Below, in pieces: positions 4,499-17,889 of a DNA stretch of 35,725 bases. Below the pieces are notes generated by a model. It did not search any database. It had not been told where the DNA came from and saw only the letters and a list, made by a program, of their open reading frames with translations. Each line of letters opens with the position of its first letter. The first letter of the stretch is position 1. The position numbers were made by a program, and so were the translations under genes. This DNA comes from a virus: the IMG/VR virus record IMGVR_UViG_3300030044_000049, positions 1 through 35,725 of that record; one strand, written 5' to 3'.

Positions 4499-5038
4499 AT
4501 GTCAACAGAGTTTCAAGAGATCCAGTGGACACAACAAGAACAAGCCTTCATCGATAGATTCTTAGGCAACTACCAACCAAACAACTACGATCTATATCTA
4601 GATTTGATCCAGACAGTGCTAGATCGACAGATAAACAAGGGCCTTGACCTTTGTGATCCCTCCATTAAAAGTCTCACAGACGGTATCTATCTTGCAATAT
4701 TTGACTACCGTGCAGGGCAAGCTATCGAATCCATGCTGTCTGATCCTTCTTACATCATCAAGAATCCACCCAACACACGCAGGATGAGCACTAAAGCTGA
4801 GTCTTATCAACGTTTCTTAGACGATAACGATCTTACACAGATCCACCACTGCATCCTATCAACTCTAGATGAATGCCCAGCTATGTCGCGCACTCAGATC
4901 TCCAACCATACAGGAATCAGGCTGCAAACCATCTGTGCACGAGTGAACGAACTGATAAAACTAGGTAAGATAAGAGTAGAAGGAACCATCAAAGATGGAG
5001 GATCCCACCGCAACGTTGAGACCCTTGTGAAAGCATAA
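4499..5038 (+). CDS. Winged-helix DNA-binding protein
   Basis: A 179-residue protein with AAGGAG upstream of the ATG. The C-terminal 65 residues form a winged helix-turn-helix: a helix around STLDECPAMS, recognition-type segment RTQISNHTGIRLQTICARVN, then ELIKLGKIRVEG as a likely wing. The N-terminal 110 residues are unassigned. It opens the second operon after a 118-base gap with a palindrome at 4383-4399 that it could bind. It may be a transcription regulator of the late operons, or a DNA-binding accessory of replication or packaging. Confidence 0.6.
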   Translation: MSTEFQEIQWTQQEQAFIDRFLGNYQPNNYDLYLDLIQTVLDRQINKGLDLCDPSIKSLTDGIYLAIFDYRAGQAIESMLSDPSYIIKNPPNTRRMSTKAESYQRFLDDNDLTQIHHCILSTLDECPAMSRTQISNHTGIRLQTICARVNELIKLGKIRVEGTIKDGGSHRNVETLVKA

Positions 5039-7874: not shown

Positions 7875-8128
7875 CTGTGTTTGCAGCTGGATATAAGCAC
7901 GCCAACTCTATTGAGCTATACACACTCAACTTAAAGTCTATGTCTGCCATCTCTATGATGGAGAGTTTCTCTAGGAGAAAAATGCAATTAGCGTACGGGT
8001 ATGAGGAAATCATTACCTTTTTCTCATGTTCAGCATCAAAAGTAATCAGAAAACCCCCTAGAGGAAGAGACGACATCCATTCTACATCCTACCACGAGGT
8101 GCTCCTTGACACCGCAGCAAGCAGCTAG
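7871..8128 (+). CDS. Small hypothetical protein between terminase genes
   Basis: An 85-residue ORF with ATGA overlap to the previous gene and 23-base overlap with the large terminase start. It is the only sensible ORF in a roughly 230-base stretch. Features are a central Met/Ser-rich helix (KSMSAISMMESFSRRKMQLA) and a basic patch (KVIRKPPRGRDD). Function unknown. Coupling suggests co-translation with the terminase. Confidence 0.5.
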   Translation: MTVFAAGYKHANSIELYTLNLKSMSAISMMESFSRRKMQLAYGYEEIITFFSCSASKVIRKPPRGRDDIHSTSYHEVLLDTAASS

Positions 8129-9569
8129 GATACTCGCTAGCAGGAAGCTAGCATCTGTTACACCTAATGTTCTTGATGTCACCTTCCAAACACAGTGGGA
8201 TTTCATCACCCATCCTAGCAAGATGAAGGCTCTCTTTGCCACTAGACGCTTTGGTAAGTCCTATACTGCAGGTCTATACCTGATGAAGGAAGCTCTAGAG
8301 AACCCAGGATGCTCTGTCCTGTATGTAGCCTTAACTCGTGAGTCTGCCAAGGGCATCATGTGGAAGGACATACTAAAGATACTCAATACTAAGCATAAGC
8401 TCAAGATCAAGTTCAACGAAACTCTACTGACAGCTACCCTACCTAATGGCTCCATCATCTACCTGATGGGTGCTGATTCCTCTGAAGACGATAAGAACAA
8501 GCTCTTGGGACGTAAGTACAAGCTAGCCATCATAGATGAAGCTGCTTCCTTCACTATCAACATGCGAGAGCTAGTCTACGGTATACTGAAACCAGCGATG
8601 GCTGACCTAGCTGGAACTATATGCCTCATAGGAACACCGTCCAACATCACGCGTGGACTCTTCTACGATGTAACTACAGGAGCAGAGCCTGGATGGCACT
8701 TAGTCAAGGCCAACACCAAAGATAACCCTTACATGACTACTAAGTGGGCTCACGAGATAGCGGAGCTCACAGCTAATCAACCCTACATCACTGAGACTCC
8801 GATGTTCAGGCAGATGTACCTAGGTGAATGGTCTGTAGATGAGGAGAAGCTCGTCTACCGCTACAACCAAGAGCGGAACACATTCAAGGATCTACCCAAG
8901 CACCTAGATCCTACAGGGTGGTCGTACGTCCTCGGTATCGACCTAGGATGGGAAGACGACAACGGCTTCGTGCTCACAGCCTACCACATCAACGACCCTC
9001 ATCTGTACGTGCTCAAGACGTTCAAGCATAACCACCTAACGTTCGATCAAGTTATTGAAAAGACTAATGAGTTCAGAAGACACCCATACCACTCTCCACA
9101 TAGGTTCATAGTGGACGGTGCTAACAAGCAAGGTGTAGAGTCCATGCGTCAGCGCTCATCCATCCCCTTTGAGATAGCTGAGAAGAACGGGAAGGTAGAC
9201 TTCATCGAGATACTCAACTCTGACCTCATCCAAGGGAAGATACTCTTTGGTCCTGATACTCAGGACCTAACAGAGGAGATGAAGGCTCTGGTGTGGAAGA
9301 CCGTAGGAGATGCCATCAAGCTTCCTAAGGAAGAGCACTCAGCGCTGCCCAACCACCTGTGCGATGCTTTCCTCTATGCTTGGCGCTTGGGGTATCACTA
9401 TCAGTCTGCTCCTGCAGAAAAGAAACTTGTAGTAGGATCTAGGGAATGGTATGCTCAGAGTGCTGACAAGATTTGGGAGCGTGAGCGTGATATGATAGAG
9501 AGACAAGCTCGCGGTAATGATAATAGCGAGTGGGCGAGCGAAGACTTTGGAGGATGGAATGACCAGTAA
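8106..9569 (+). CDS. terL: Large terminase subunit (packaging ATPase-nuclease)
   Basis: A 487-residue protein with a TTG start and GAGG about 6 bases upstream. The N-terminal ATPase has an adenine-binding FQTQWDF (27-33), Walker A ATRRFGKS (45-52) and Walker B LAIIDEA (140-146, catalytic E145), with a coupling GTPSN motif near residue 178. The RNase H-like nuclease begins at LGIDLGWEDDN (metal-binding D279) with a second acidic site at VDGANKQG. It pumps DNA into the prohead through the portal and cuts concatemers. Length and motifs fit podovirus terminases. It is preceded by the likely small subunit. Confidence 0.95.
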   Translation: MTPQQAARILASRKLASVTPNVLDVTFQTQWDFITHPSKMKALFATRRFGKSYTAGLYLMKEALENPGCSVLYVALTRESAKGIMWKDILKILNTKHKLKIKFNETLLTATLPNGSIIYLMGADSSEDDKNKLLGRKYKLAIIDEAASFTINMRELVYGILKPAMADLAGTICLIGTPSNITRGLFYDVTTGAEPGWHLVKANTKDNPYMTTKWAHEIAELTANQPYITETPMFRQMYLGEWSVDEEKLVYRYNQERNTFKDLPKHLDPTGWSYVLGIDLGWEDDNGFVLTAYHINDPHLYVLKTFKHNHLTFDQVIEKTNEFRRHPYHSPHRFIVDGANKQGVESMRQRSSIPFEIAEKNGKVDFIEILNSDLIQGKILFGPDTQDLTEEMKALVWKTVGDAIKLPKEEHSALPNHLCDAFLYAWRLGYHYQSAPAEKKLVVGSREWYAQSADKIWERERDMIERQARGNDNSEWASEDFGGWNDQ

Positions 9570-9837
9570 GAAGAAGAAAACACTGCAAGCTAAGGCACAT
9601 ATATCTCGCATACTAGTGAAGATGGACATCTGTGAGTACAGAGAAACCTATGGGTACCCGGTATATGCAACTCCACTAAACTCTAATAATATCAATGCAC
9701 TGTTACTAGAATTGTACGCCGACATCGACATAGGTGATCTTACCTATCTTGACAACCCTCTTCTAGCTCTAATTCCTAAAGAGAATGAGGCAAGCTACCC
9801 TACGTTCAATCTACCCATCACTCTATCGAGATCTAAA
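9559..9837 (+). CDS. Small protein copying the N-terminal arm of the major capsid protein
   Basis: I chose ATG 9559 because GGAGG sits 5 bases upstream (coding region ends just before the stop that closes at 9840). The product is about 93 residues, with a Lys-rich N-terminus. From residue about 33 it reads PVYAT, NINALLLELYADID, YLDNPLLALIPKENE, PTFNLPI. The major capsid protein begins APVYANS, QIAALKELYTDDK, YSKNPLLALVPKNES, YIPVPL. The same elements appear in the same order with almost the same spacing. It therefore looks like a paralogue of the capsid N-arm that lost the rest of the fold. It may cap, regulate or compete in capsid assembly, or be a relic. Confidence 0.7.
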
Positions 9838-10013
9838 TGAAATTTCTTTATAGCATATACCGTCTAATCAGGATGTACTTCATAGAGAGAAGATGGAGGA
9901 AGACCGTAGACTCTACGTGGAAGCTATCTATATGCCTATGCAAGCTGTCTATCATAGAAGAAGATGATATAGGAGAGGCCCTATATCATCTTCAACTTCA
10001 TGTACAACACTGA
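9837..10013 (+). CDS. Small helical protein (paralogue group)
   Basis: A 58-residue ORF with ATGA overlap to the capsid-arm gene. A basic N-terminal half (FIERRWRKTV) is followed by TWKLSICLCKLSIIEEDDIG and ALYHLQLH. The core repeats the pattern of the small proteins at 5057, 10029 and 10247. It is probably a two-helix protein. Function unknown. Confidence 0.55.
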   Translation: MKFLYSIYRLIRMYFIERRWRKTVDSTWKLSICLCKLSIIEEDDIGEALYHLQLHVQH

Positions 10014-10028
10014 ATATAGGATAGAAGA

Positions 10029-10250
10029 ATGAGCATGTCTGTCCAGATGTCTAGAGACTATGTTGCTGCTGCTATACGTGCCCAGAACGAGCGCATGCTT
10101 ATGCGTAAGGCTTTAGCTTTCTTGTTAAAGATCTCTATCATAGAAGGAGATGAACACTGTATGCTGTTTGATAGATTGCTACCAAATGATAACCCCTTTG
10201 TTAAACTAATGACAAGCAGCAGCTTTAATTACGATGGTGGTCGTCGATGA
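10029..10250 (+). CDS. Small helical protein (paralogue group)
   Basis: A 73-residue protein preceded by AGGATAGAAG. An N-terminal helix (RDYVAAAIRAQNERMLMRKA) is followed by the shared core LAFLLKISIIEGDEHCMLFD. It ends with ATGA overlap to the next ORF. Together with 9837 and 10247 it forms a run of diverged copies. Function unknown. Confidence 0.58.
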   Translation: MSMSVQMSRDYVAAAIRAQNERMLMRKALAFLLKISIIEGDEHCMLFDRLLPNDNPFVKLMTSSSFNYDGGRR

Positions 10251-10414
10251 GATCTAAATCAATACTAGAGGTTGATAACGATGTCTACGCCTACCAGGTG
10301 ATGATATGGATATTCATCAAGTGCGACCTGATAGAGCGCGAAGACTGGTATGCTATATGGGATGAGAAACTTGAGTCTGACTACAGGAACCATCGTAGAC
10401 TCGCATCTACCTAA
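10247..10414 (+). CDS. Small helical protein (paralogue group)
   Basis: A 55-residue ORF with ATGA overlap. The core YQVMIWIFIKCDLIEREDWY matches the hydrophobic helix plus LIExxD pattern of its two upstream neighbours, with a Trp-rich variation. The stop is followed almost at once by the repeated motif at 10416-10429. Function unknown. Confidence 0.52.
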   Translation: MRSKSILEVDNDVYAYQVMIWIFIKCDLIEREDWYAIWDEKLESDYRNHRRLAST

Positions 10415-10478: not shown

Positions 10479-10805
10479 ATGTCTAACATCTTGATATTAA
10501 ACCAACCTTTTGTAAACGTTGGTCTTCCCACTATGACCTATACTATTCCAACTACCGGTTTATACTCGGTCTTAGTCCAGTTGACAGAGGTTCCTGTCTC
10601 TACACTGTCAGTGGTCGTCAACCAGAACGGCAGCCCCATATTCACAGCACCAACAATCACTCCAACCCAGATAGCTCAGCAGTTTAAGATACCAGTAGTA
10701 GGAACAGCAACAGACACCATCTCCGTTGTGGTTTCCTCATCTGCAGCTACCGATAAGCAGCTTAACTCGGTGAAGACAACTATCACCATCCAACAAGGAA
10801 CCTAA
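10479..10805 (+). CDS. Small beta-sandwich virion protein (decoration-like), copy A
   Basis: A 108-residue, Thr/Val-rich all-beta protein with AAAGGA upstream. Its elements are TMTYTIPTTGLYSVLVQL, a central SVVVNQNGSPIF, and a C-terminal KTTITIQQGT. The gene at 11053 shows the same order (TASYTVGTAGTYSV, STIKLNSS, SVITIFQGQ), so the two are paralogues split by one small gene. Compact beta proteins near the portal are often capsid decoration or head-fibre proteins. That role is inferred from composition and place. Confidence 0.65.
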   Translation: MSNILILNQPFVNVGLPTMTYTIPTTGLYSVLVQLTEVPVSTLSVVVNQNGSPIFTAPTITPTQIAQQFKIPVVGTATDTISVVVSSSAATDKQLNSVKTTITIQQGT

Positions 10806-11052: not shown

Positions 11053-11394
11053 ATGTCAGCATCAGACGGAACCTACCAAACATTGGTATTCGACGGTTTA
11101 GGAACAGCCTCTTATACAGTAGGTACAGCAGGAACATACTCTGTTCACTCTAAAAGCTCTATTCCTACGCTTACAGCAGGTGGACTTGCATCTGGACTTG
11201 TATCTACGATCAAGCTCAATAGTTCTACGGTTCTTACTAGCGCAACAGGAGCTTCTGGCGTATCAACTAGCGGTATCGTCTGTGCTGTAGGAGACGTGCT
11301 GAGCGTTGTATACACCTCATCTGTAACTGCAGATGAGAATCCACCTAATGCTAACGTCATCAAGTCTGTCATCACTATCTTCCAGGGACAGTGA
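11053..11394 (+). CDS. Small beta-sandwich virion protein (decoration-like), copy B
   Basis: A 113-residue, Ser/Thr/Val/Gly-rich beta protein, paralogous to the product at 10479 by matching first and last strands (SYTVGTAGTYSVHSK; NVIKSVITIFQGQ). Two diverged copies suggest two binding sites on the virion or a heteromeric decoration. Function inferred from composition and location before the portal gene. Confidence 0.65.
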   Translation: MSASDGTYQTLVFDGLGTASYTVGTAGTYSVHSKSSIPTLTAGGLASGLVSTIKLNSSTVLTSATGASGVSTSGIVCAVGDVLSVVYTSSVTADENPPNANVIKSVITIFQGQ

Positions 11395-14464: not shown

Positions 14465-15457
14465 ATGAAGATCGCACCGATAGCAGCTCCAAGTAACACC
14501 CAAGGACAAGCAGTAGACGTAGGGAATGGACAGGGAAACAGTCCAGATGCCTTAGCTCGTGCTAAAGCAGCATTCCAAGGTGTAACACAGACACCCTCTA
14601 CATCCTATGAGGATCCAGTAGTAACTAAGACACGTGAATCTATACGCTCTCTCAAGATGAACACCAACGCTTCTCCTGATAGGTTTGATGACCAAGGAGC
14701 TTTTGCACAAGATAACACCATAACAGACCCTTCTAGAAACACTAACGCGACAACTGAAGTTACTCAGCCGCTTAGTCCTCAGTATGCCGCGCTCGCTAAA
14801 CAGCGTCGCGCCCTCCAAGTTAAAGAGAGGGAGCTAGCAGAACGAGAGCGTTCGATGTCCTCACAGACACCTAGGACAGGTGCAGATGATGTGATAGCCC
14901 GCTTGAAATCTCAGCCTCTGAGCGTGTTGCAAGAACACGGCGTAACGTACGATCAGCTCACTGAAGCTATCCTATCGACCCAGAACTCCAATCCCGAGAT
15001 GCAAGCTCTAAGAGACGAAATCCGTGCCCTTAAAGAAGGTGTGGATAAGAACTTCACTGAGAGAGATTCCTATGCTGAACAACAAGTGTTGTCAGAGATG
15101 CGCAAGGAAGCCATAGAGCTTTCTAAGCAAGGGGATACATTCGAGATGGTGCGAGAAACTCGCAGTCTACCAGACGTGATGAGATTGATAGAGCAGACCT
15201 ACAGAACTACAGGAGAAGTCTTGGATGTTCAAGAAGCTATGCAGCTAGTAGAAGATGAACTGATGAACGAAAGCCTTAAGATTGCAAACATAAAGAAGGT
15301 GCTAGGAAGATTGAACTCTGCTCCTACACAACCTGCAGCTCAGCAGCAACAGACGAATCCTCCTATGAGGACTCTTACCAACAGAGATACAGCGAGTCCA
15401 CGTGTATCAGCTAAGGCAAGGGCAATCGCAGCGTTCTACGGCAGTAAAGTTAAGTAA
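14465..15457 (+). CDS. Probable scaffolding protein
   Basis: A 330-residue, highly charged, mostly helical protein directly before the major capsid gene. An N-terminal disordered part (1-100) is followed by a coiled coil (YAALAKQRRALQVKERELAE) and further helices. The C-terminal end is basic (RVSAKARAIAAFYGSKVK), matching the capsid-binding helix-turn-helix end of phage scaffolds. It is expected to template procapsid assembly and then exit. No protease gene is seen nearby. Confidence 0.8.
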   Translation: MKIAPIAAPSNTQGQAVDVGNGQGNSPDALARAKAAFQGVTQTPSTSYEDPVVTKTRESIRSLKMNTNASPDRFDDQGAFAQDNTITDPSRNTNATTEVTQPLSPQYAALAKQRRALQVKERELAERERSMSSQTPRTGADDVIARLKSQPLSVLQEHGVTYDQLTEAILSTQNSNPEMQALRDEIRALKEGVDKNFTERDSYAEQQVLSEMRKEAIELSKQGDTFEMVRETRSLPDVMRLIEQTYRTTGEVLDVQEAMQLVEDELMNESLKIANIKKVLGRLNSAPTQPAAQQQQTNPPMRTLTNRDTASPRVSAKARAIAAFYGSKVK

Positions 15458-15481: not shown

Positions 15482-16789
15482 ATGGCTATCGCACCTGTTT
15501 ACGCAAACTCGGCAAACCAGATCGCAGCTCTTAAAGAGCTCTACACTGATGACAAAGACTACATGAAGAACATCGTGTACTCCAAGAACCCTCTCTTAGC
15601 TCTTGTTCCTAAGAACGAAAGCCCAGATGGATTCGCTGGTAAGTACATCCCAGTTCCTCTTGAATACGGTAACCCTCAGGGTCGTGCACACGTTTTCGCT
15701 AACGCTCAGAACCAACAAACAGCTTCTGATGTTGTAAGCTTCTTCGTTTATGCAGTACAAGACTATCAATTGGTAACAATCACCAACCTGTTGATGGAAC
15801 AAACCAAGTCTAACGCAGGAGCATTCGTAGATGAAGCTTCCCGTACTCTAGACAACGGCTTCCGCAACATCTCTAACAACATGGCTTTCGAGCTATTCTC
15901 TGGCGGTACAGCTTCACGCGGTACTATCAGCGCAGCTGGTGTAACTCTTTCTGGTTCTACTCTATCCTTTGTTCTAACCAATAGCCAGTCTGTTGTTCAG
16001 TTCGAAGTAGGAATGACCATCCAAGCTTCGGCAACTGACGGTGGAGCTGCTCTGCAGAACACTCCAGGGACCATCGATGCTATCCAGATCACATCTGTAA
16101 ACCGCGGTACAGGAGCTATCTCTGGTACTGTTGTTCAAGGTGCACCTGGTTCTAGCTGGGGTGCAGGGGACTTCTTGCAGGTATTGGGCGACATCGGTAT
16201 CGGTGGAAGCTCCACGATCGCAGGCATGTTGGGTCTATCTGGCTTAGCAGCTTGGGTACCTAACGTTGATCCTCCTTCGAACGACAACTTCTGGGGTGTT
16301 AACCGCTCTGCTGACCCAACTCGTTTGGGCGGTCTGCGCTACAACGCAGGTAGTCAGTCTATCTCTGAAGGTATCACCAACGCTTTAGCTCTTGCTAACC
16401 GCGAAGGCGCAGCTCCAGACCTTATCGTTCTAGACTTCGTTTCCTATGCAACTCTTATCAATGAACTAGGAGCTAAGGTTCAATATGTTCAACTTGAGCA
16501 TGATGAAGTTGAAGTAGCATTTGAAGCAATCCATTTCCACTCGGCTTACGGCAAGATCCCAGTGTTGGCTGACCGTTCGTGCCCTGCACAAACTGCCTAT
16601 GCACTCACTATGGATACATGGAAACTGCGTACACTTGGTAAAGCTCCTCATATCCTAACCTACGGCATGGAAGGTTTGGAAGGCTTACGCGTCGGCAACG
16701 CGGACGCTTTGGAAATAAGAATTGCTTACTACGGGAACCTGATCTGTTCAGCTCCAGGTTACAATATGGTAATCGCTTTAAGCGCTTAA
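15482..16789 (+). CDS. Major capsid protein (HK97-fold expected)
   Basis: A 435-residue protein with clean, strongly coding sequence after the scaffold gene. The N-arm reads PVYANSANQIAALKELYTDD, then NPLLALVPKNES. The middle has LTNSQSVVQFEVGMTIQ and a Gly-rich insertion. The C-terminal domain has LIVLDFVSYATLINELGA and IPVLADRSCPAQTAYALTMD. This layout is typical of podovirus major capsid proteins. A strong terminator follows directly, as expected for the most highly expressed gene. A partial copy of the N-arm is encoded at 9559. Confidence 0.92.
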   Translation: MAIAPVYANSANQIAALKELYTDDKDYMKNIVYSKNPLLALVPKNESPDGFAGKYIPVPLEYGNPQGRAHVFANAQNQQTASDVVSFFVYAVQDYQLVTITNLLMEQTKSNAGAFVDEASRTLDNGFRNISNNMAFELFSGGTASRGTISAAGVTLSGSTLSFVLTNSQSVVQFEVGMTIQASATDGGAALQNTPGTIDAIQITSVNRGTGAISGTVVQGAPGSSWGAGDFLQVLGDIGIGGSSTIAGMLGLSGLAAWVPNVDPPSNDNFWGVNRSADPTRLGGLRYNAGSQSISEGITNALALANREGAAPDLIVLDFVSYATLINELGAKVQYVQLEHDEVEVAFEAIHFHSAYGKIPVLADRSCPAQTAYALTMDTWKLRTLGKAPHILTYGMEGLEGLRVGNADALEIRIAYYGNLICSAPGYNMVIALSA

Positions 16790-16923: not shown

Positions 16924-17889
16924 ATGATTATCTACAAGATCACCGACAAGACTAACGGTAAGATATACATCGGACAAACCACAAAAACTATTTCTAAAAG
17001 ATGGACTCAACATAAGCATAAAGGATTAAAATCTGGTGGGCATAAGAATCCACTCTATGCTGCCATGATGGCACACGGACTTGACAATTTCTCTATAGAA
17101 GAGATCGACAGTGCTTCCTCGATAGAAGAACTGAACAGGAAAGAGCAAGAGCATATCAGGACATCAAACTCTCAGCATCCTAATGGATACAACCTAGCAT
17201 CTGGTGGATTTTCTTCTTCTGGTACATCTGCTTGGAATAAGGGGCTTAAGACTTCTGATAAAACTAAGGAAAAGCTATCTAAGGCTCATATGGGGCAAAT
17301 TCCAGGTAATAGAAAACAGGTATTGTGTTTAAATAATAATGTTGTGTATCTGTCTCTTCATCATGCTGCAAAAGATCTGAATCTATTAATTCCTAAAATA
17401 AGTCAGGTTGCTAATGGTCAACGCAAACATACACAAGGTTTTCGATTTACCTATTCTCTTCCCCAACAACCACCTGTTCCTGCTGGTTGGCACAAACCCA
17501 CCGTTTACCTATTAGCTGGTCAATCTGGAGTAGGGAAGACGTGGGTATCTTCACAGCTTAAGGATAGGTTTGTTACGCTCAGCAACGACATGGACGGACC
17601 TGAAGAAGCCGTGAAGATGATGGTGGCAGATACCAGCAAGACGTACATCTACGAGACTCCCGTGTATGTATCTACTTTTATTAATAAAAATCAGCATCTA
17701 TTTGATATTAAGCTCGTCGTCATACTAGAGGATGAAGAGACGGTGAAAGCTAGACTATTGGCCAGAAGCGGCAGTGCATTGTCTGCTATCTCTCGTCGGC
17801 ATGCAAGGTTCAAGAGCATGGCAGATAGGTACGGTGCCGTGTTCACAGGTACTTCCCAAGAATGCTTAGAATTCCTTAAGATAGTTTAA
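16924..17889 (+). CDS. GIY-YIG homing endonuclease fused to P-loop kinase-like domain
   Basis: A 321-residue protein with AGGAGGAA upstream. Residues 1-95 are a GIY-YIG nuclease (IIYKITDKTNGKIYIGQT, catalytic-type R26, acidic E in the EELNRKEQEH helix). Residues about 98-125 match a NUMOD3-type motif (AWNKGLKTSDKTKEKLSKAH). Residues 135-180 resemble an IENR1-type DNA-binding helix-turn-helix with QVANGQRKHTQGFRF. Residues 190-321 are a P-loop NTPase (Walker A GQSGVGKT at 199-206) resembling small nucleotide or polynucleotide kinases. The gene has its own promoter and follows a terminator, so it is a moron. The fusion is unusual, and the kinase part is GC-richer than the AT-rich NUMOD part. 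Confidence 0.85.
   Translation: MIIYKITDKTNGKIYIGQTTKTISKRWTQHKHKGLKSGGHKNPLYAAMMAHGLDNFSIEEIDSASSIEELNRKEQEHIRTSNSQHPNGYNLASGGFSSSGTSAWNKGLKTSDKTKEKLSKAHMGQIPGNRKQVLCLNNNVVYLSLHHAAKDLNLLIPKISQVANGQRKHTQGFRFTYSLPQQPPVPAGWHKPTVYLLAGQSGVGKTWVSSQLKDRFVTLSNDMDGPEEAVKMMVADTSKTYIYETPVYVSTFINKNQHLFDIKLVVILEDEETVKARLLARSGSALSAISRRHARFKSMADRYGAVFTGTSQECLEFLKIV

Follow-up and report, generated by a model that had tools for sequence, protein, structure and literature searches.

What might a small phage protein do that carries the beginning of a capsid protein and nothing of its core? The question is raised by an open reading frame in the window, the stretch of 35,725 nucleotides analysed here (positions 1 to 35,725 of the IMG/VR virus record IMGVR_UViG_3300030044_000049). 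The gene for this arm-bearing mini-protein lies at 9559..9840 on the + strand (coordinates including the stop codon), starts with ATG and encodes 93 residues. A GGAGG ribosome-binding site can be read from the sequence at 9549..9553 (+ strand), 5 nt upstream of the ATG at 9559, which bears out the strong ribosome site of its own that the sequence-only reading had given the gene. The large terminase subunit gene, terL (8106..9569, + strand; phrog_2 at E 7e-37, Terminase_6N; start codon uncertain), lies immediately upstream and shares its last 11 nt with the mini-protein ORF (9559..9569, + strand). Of the coupling to the terminase that had been claimed, the overlap is observed, and translational coupling is what this arrangement suggests. 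An ATGA junction couples the mini-protein ORF in turn to the following ORF at 9837, which belongs to three small downstream ORFs (9837-10013, 10029-10250 and 10247-10414, + strand) in a variable block that extends from terL to 10479. These three ORFs are present in near-identical contigs only. The same contig encodes terminase, portal, capsid and a putative scaffold gene. An Rfam search around the mini-protein ORF for remnants of introns or other RNAs gave nothing above chance.

Some further features of this region are recorded here in their own right. The small ORFs beside the mini-protein (window 9837-10414) have a short motif in common, LxKxSIIExDE, with weak pairwise significance (best p 0.008). 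Small ORFs at L152:2220-3363 contain a counterpart, LLxKLGLxSADP, and the motif is similar to the N-terminal portion of that record's arm protein as well. An arm in the neighbouring ORF at 10029 ("DNPFVKLM") was dismissed as not significant (E 0.29). Two similar-looking small ORFs with NQNGSPIFTAP-type repeats are found at 10479-10805 and 11053-11394 of the window, and ORFs of this type recur, often paired, between terL and the portal gene in most relatives.

Residues 34-89 of the mini-protein (9658..9825, + strand) form its capsid-arm module and align to residues 5-60 of the capsid protein with 42% identity (BLASTP, E 5e-8). The Smith-Waterman score of the pair is 80, a value reached by none of 2000 shuffled sequences (mean 26.9, sd 5.1, maximum 58), and the resemblance proposed from the sequence thus lies well beyond that of shuffled sequence. 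When the whole record is searched with the mini-protein, the start of the capsid gene is the only match besides itself (E 9.5e-6), with no resemblance to the putative scaffold. Scored with a profile that was made from capsid arms and nothing else, the mini-protein reaches 23.5 bits; the best score in sets of 38,443 reversed ORFs and 38,443 shuffled ones is 8.6 bits. The motifs said to be shared in order (PVYA, NxIxALxxELYxD and NPLLAL(I/V)PK) hold as a sign of homology but are not all identical: the middle one reads NxIxALxxELYxD in the mini-protein and NxIxALxELYxD in the capsid protein, an offset of one residue relative to ELY that leaves the conclusion of homology unchanged. The alignment stops at about capsid residue 60, and the mini-protein lacks a complete E-loop, the P-domain with its spine helix and the A-domain, in line with the claim that nothing of the capsid core is present. 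On these comparisons, the mini-protein is confirmed as a genuine arm-only homologue of the capsid protein. The curated capsid_maj_Podo model (NF033394) does not match it, and none of the family libraries scanned gave it a name. The structural model of the mini-protein is poor (pLDDT 55), and the arm may not fold by itself.

The major capsid protein is encoded at 15482..16789 (+ strand) and belongs to the HK97 fold (NF033394 capsid_maj_Podo, 87.7 bits, cut-off 80). Its AlphaFold2 model (pLDDT 78) finds its best structural match in 7f38 of cyanophage A-1(L) (Z 20.3), and HK97 Prohead II is matched with Z 16.7. The part common to the mini-protein, residues 1-60 (15482..15661, + strand), comprises the N-arm and the first E-loop strand; in the model this region consists of helices 11-22, 25-33 and 37-41 followed by a strand at 56-62, which from its position in the fold is probably the first E-loop strand. 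As modelled, the piece covered by the mini-protein is a structural unit of the capsid protein. Relatives were collected as 78 capsid loci from IMG/VR, with further loci from later scans. Among 50,697 cultured phages, none encodes a capsid protein of this type at E 1e-5 and no meaningful relative of the mini-proteins or of the capsid protein was found; one MAG fragment bears a capsid protein that is 39% identical.

Insertions of a few hundred bases split the capsid gene in many relatives, for the most part inside the stretch that codes for the arm or immediately behind it (L040:9194-10100, and L035, L037, L038, L039, L041, L043, L046, L062, L063, L065, L067, L068, L071, L075, L081 and L207). 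The insertion in L040, located between GFAG and KYIPVPL, contains an ORF that looks HNH/endonuclease-VII-like by eye. Searched against Rfam, the insertions of L040 and L062 gave no intron family, and a lenient threshold did not change this. In the window, the ORF directly downstream of the capsid gene (16924-17889) appears by eye to be a fusion of a GIY-YIG endonuclease-like N-terminus and a P-loop kinase-like C-terminus.

The similarity between the mini-protein and the capsid arm does not look recent. The window's arm and the arm of its own capsid protein agree at 25 of 53 aligned residues, with a nucleotide identity of 0.50; matching codons number 8, as against 8.2 expected under random synonymous choice; the L028 arm and its own capsid show a similar pattern. 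Saturated synonymous sites combined with 25 of 53 matching residues imply that the similarity either is old and maintained at the protein level or stems from capture from a distant capsid lineage, whereas a recent duplication of the phage's own capsid gene is ruled out by the nucleotide identity of about 0.50 and the randomised synonymous codons. At columns that are at least 90% conserved in capsids, 67% of the cells of the arm proteins agree with the capsid consensus, as against 27% at variable columns. This retention of invariant residues, taken with the saturation, could also mean that the arm was captured from a capsid lineage not yet sampled, in which case constraint since the capture would be weaker than supposed. 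The loop between NP and the PxP strand has 16 residues in six of the nine arm proteins that can be scored, the window's included. The long-loop pattern is found in 112 of the 114 capsid ORFs of the group (19 residues from NP to PxP in two measured examples), and in the six short-loop arms the loop falls three residues short of that in the capsid proteins of their own phages. As proof of an origin in another lineage the short loop was rejected: a single further capsid with the same spacing, L252, was seen, and the arms of core NF033394 capsids are too divergent for the comparison.

Similarity to the phage's own capsid was also ranked among 108 capsids. The window arm ranks its own capsid 20 of 108; the ranks are 6-11 of 108 for four other arms and 56-95 for five, and two arm proteins are unranked because their capsid genes are interrupted. 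Given these mixed ranks, the description of the mini-protein as homologous to the capsid arm is right and that as a copy of the phage's own arm, made in the sequence-only reading, is wrong: rank 20 of 108, randomised synonymous codons and a short loop absent from 112 of 114 capsid ORFs all speak against it. That arms aim at foreign capsids was likewise set aside as a general rule, the ranks being split between 6-20 in five and 56-95 in five.

The mini-protein is one of 12 non-capsid arm proteins found by arm-profile searches of ORFs and then of records (about 154 IMG/VR records, which are uncultured contigs, many of them partial). They are those of the window, L037 (G069), L028 (G060), L098 (G015), G032, G027, G055, G038, G099, G080, G123 and G124, and all score 16-46 bits with a profile made from capsid arms only, in which no mini-protein is included. 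By a count from the profile-search outputs, 9 of the 56 records of at least 30 kb contain an arm protein. The arm is C-terminal in nearly all of these proteins, as against N-terminal in capsids, and is preceded by at least seven unrelated kinds of N-terminus. L037 and G123 have a twin-arginine leader plus arm in common and are 54% identical, and their phages belong to different capsid groups (the TAT_signal model gives L250 25.1 bits, above cut-off); G099 and G080 share a second N-terminus plus arm. The L028 version consists of the arm only (60 residues) and has no passenger; the arm of G055 is internal, in the middle of a 300-residue protein. Arm genes are located directly downstream of terL in the window and L037, and also in G123, there in inverted orientation; just upstream of terL in G124 and G099; and directly upstream of the portal gene in L028. 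The remaining ones lie in accessory or early regions, and that of G038 adjoins an HNH-like gene. The sequence-only reading would have been refuted by absence of the ORF from close relatives, and on this point the outcome is mixed. The window's ORF itself is found in the near-identical contigs L003 and L005 only, with no intermediate relatives, but other arm proteins are present in relatives; one of them is in L006/G038, the record whose capsid (93% identical) is the nearest distinct relative.

Two ORFs of this kind deserve separate mention. The arm ORF at L037:4528-4823 overlaps a tRNA-Asn gene (4748-4823) with its 3' end, so that its last codons lie inside the tRNA. An ORF at L158:1611-1988 in the L070 record ("KELYKD...NPLLDLV") contains KELYKDQDYSWMGFNPLLDLV, followed by a zinc-finger-like tail; it is a possible further arm protein and was excluded from the 12 as weak (E 0.001).

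The contacts of coat arms in other phages indicate where a free arm might bind. In phage 80alpha, the C-terminal helix-and-hook of the scaffold touches the coat, especially its N-arm, and the SaPI1 protein CpmB vies with the scaffold for the coat binding site (PMC5644958). In P22, acidic residues of the coat N-arm are contacted by the scaffold hook (PMC12005531), and a study of the D3 capsid proposes scaffold-N-arm contacts as a common feature (PMC12749128). The putative scaffolding protein of the window (14465..15457, + strand) is named by its position before the capsid gene only and gave no convincing family match. Its conserved basic C-terminus (15359-15454, + strand) is the proposed partner of the arm: in 62 relatives the last 32 residues of this protein have a mean net charge of +5.2, as against -1.3 for the whole protein. 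The leading helix region of the arm is net negative in 9 of the 11 arm proteins examined. With a basic scaffold end and a negative arm helix, a free arm could bind to the scaffold hook or lie in the groove that receives a neighbour's arm.

The explanation ranked first, though tentatively, is that the mini-protein is an accessory protein whose C-terminal arm module takes the coat-arm binding site, thereby tuning or blocking the assembly of procapsids. The module would fold onto the site normally used by the coat N-arm, a candidate being the scaffold hook and/or, on a neighbouring subunit, the inner P-domain and E-loop. Since no coat core is attached to it, the bound arm would compete with coat-scaffold or coat-coat contacts, and procapsid assembly would be tuned or blocked; an accessory role might be exerted on co-infecting related phages or satellites. 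Modulation of assembly is placed first because the genes are sporadic, turn over quickly and look accessory-like, a distribution that fits an accessory role better than a core structural one. Counting against it, several arm proteins are located in early or accessory regions and not in late operons. The decoy or assembly regulator of the sequence-only reading remains a plausible candidate. It is also possible, with somewhat less confidence, that the arm is a shufflable module grafted onto accessory proteins and engaging the coat-arm site of their own or of another phage; on that view, the shortened loop, together with the weak likeness between several arms and the capsid of their own phage, would mean that these arms aim at a different capsid lineage.

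The C-terminal position of the arm and the variety of its N-termini place second a docking function, in which the arm would bring varied N-terminal passengers, a twin-arginine/membrane leader for instance, to the procapsid or scaffold, co-assembled or tethered. The twin-arginine fusion in two phages of different capsid groups and the second fusion common to G099 and G080 agree with such a role, which is nonetheless rather doubtful: no function is assigned to any passenger, none exists in L028, and the arm of G055 is not terminal. The same two recurrent fusions in distant phages weigh against a more sceptical explanation, that pieces of capsid genes were spread by recombination or homing endonucleases as non-functional ORFs. 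The interruption of relatives' capsid genes in or right behind the arm-coding stretch, with an endonuclease-bearing insertion in L040, would suit such debris, as would the HNH-like neighbour of the G038 arm protein and the great rarity of orthologues. However, the frames are open, several have coupled starts, residues are conserved despite saturated synonymous sites, and positions invariant in capsids are preferentially retained, which makes gene debris unlikely. Least probable of all is that the arm serves as a decoy for immunity, occupying a host sensor of the capsid protein without activating it. Capsid-sensing immunity exists, as described for CapRel (PMC9712102), and a location among accessory genes suits anti-defence, but no sensor is linked to the arm.

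Among known systems, several come close to the proposed modulation of assembly. Ccm of SaPIbov5 is likewise a second capsid-protein homologue that acts on assembly, and is said to have been acquired horizontally from a phage (PMC8569155). It is a complete HK97-fold protein, becomes part of the shell and is encoded by a satellite, whereas the mini-protein is an arm only, with the arm at its C-terminus, and is encoded by a phage. CpmB of SaPI1, Rcm of SaPIpT1028 and Sid of P4 are small capsid-assembly proteins (PMC5644958, PMC12409344, PMC7552001). CpmB works at the coat-scaffold contact beside the coat N-arm; it and Rcm are competitors on the scaffold side, whereas the mini-protein reproduces the coat's own arm. 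The likeness to the coat-binding end of a scaffold that marks CpmB is missing from the mini-protein, which in its own record matched the capsid gene and not the putative scaffold. Of the satellite capsid redirectors Ccm, CpmB and Rcm, none consists of an arm alone and none is a phage protein whose N-terminus varies. Tab, a prophage tail-assembly blocker, is phage-encoded and stops the virion assembly of another phage, but it targets the tail and not the head, and its abstract mentions no capsid mimicry (PMC10884400). NF033394 and HK97-fold capsids themselves are homologous to the arm module over the N-arm and first E-loop strand; lacking P-domain, A-domain and spine helix, the module cannot form a shell. 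As for docking, the arm resembles a cargo tag in that it recurs as a module at the C-terminal end of proteins that are otherwise unrelated. Encapsulin cargo-loading peptides are C-terminal tags that dock unrelated proteins inside HK97-fold shells. These tags are short and unrelated to the shell protein, whereas the arm module is a coat-arm homologue for which loading is only hypothesised. No arm-only class came up in searches of open-access papers, and together with the family libraries this agrees with the statement that no such family has been described.

The occurrence of a capsid arm on the ends of different small proteins suggests, at the level of sequence, that small proteins are plugged into capsid building in a way not described before. 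Should the arms bind in the proposed manner, the assembly handle of the coat has repeatedly been made a separable module on accessory proteins. This would represent a new means of conflict between phages or of loading proteins into capsids, and would provide a natural set of inhibitors for probing coat-arm/scaffold recognition. An arm without a core is also a search signature that annotation pipelines miss, since no family library named the protein of the window.
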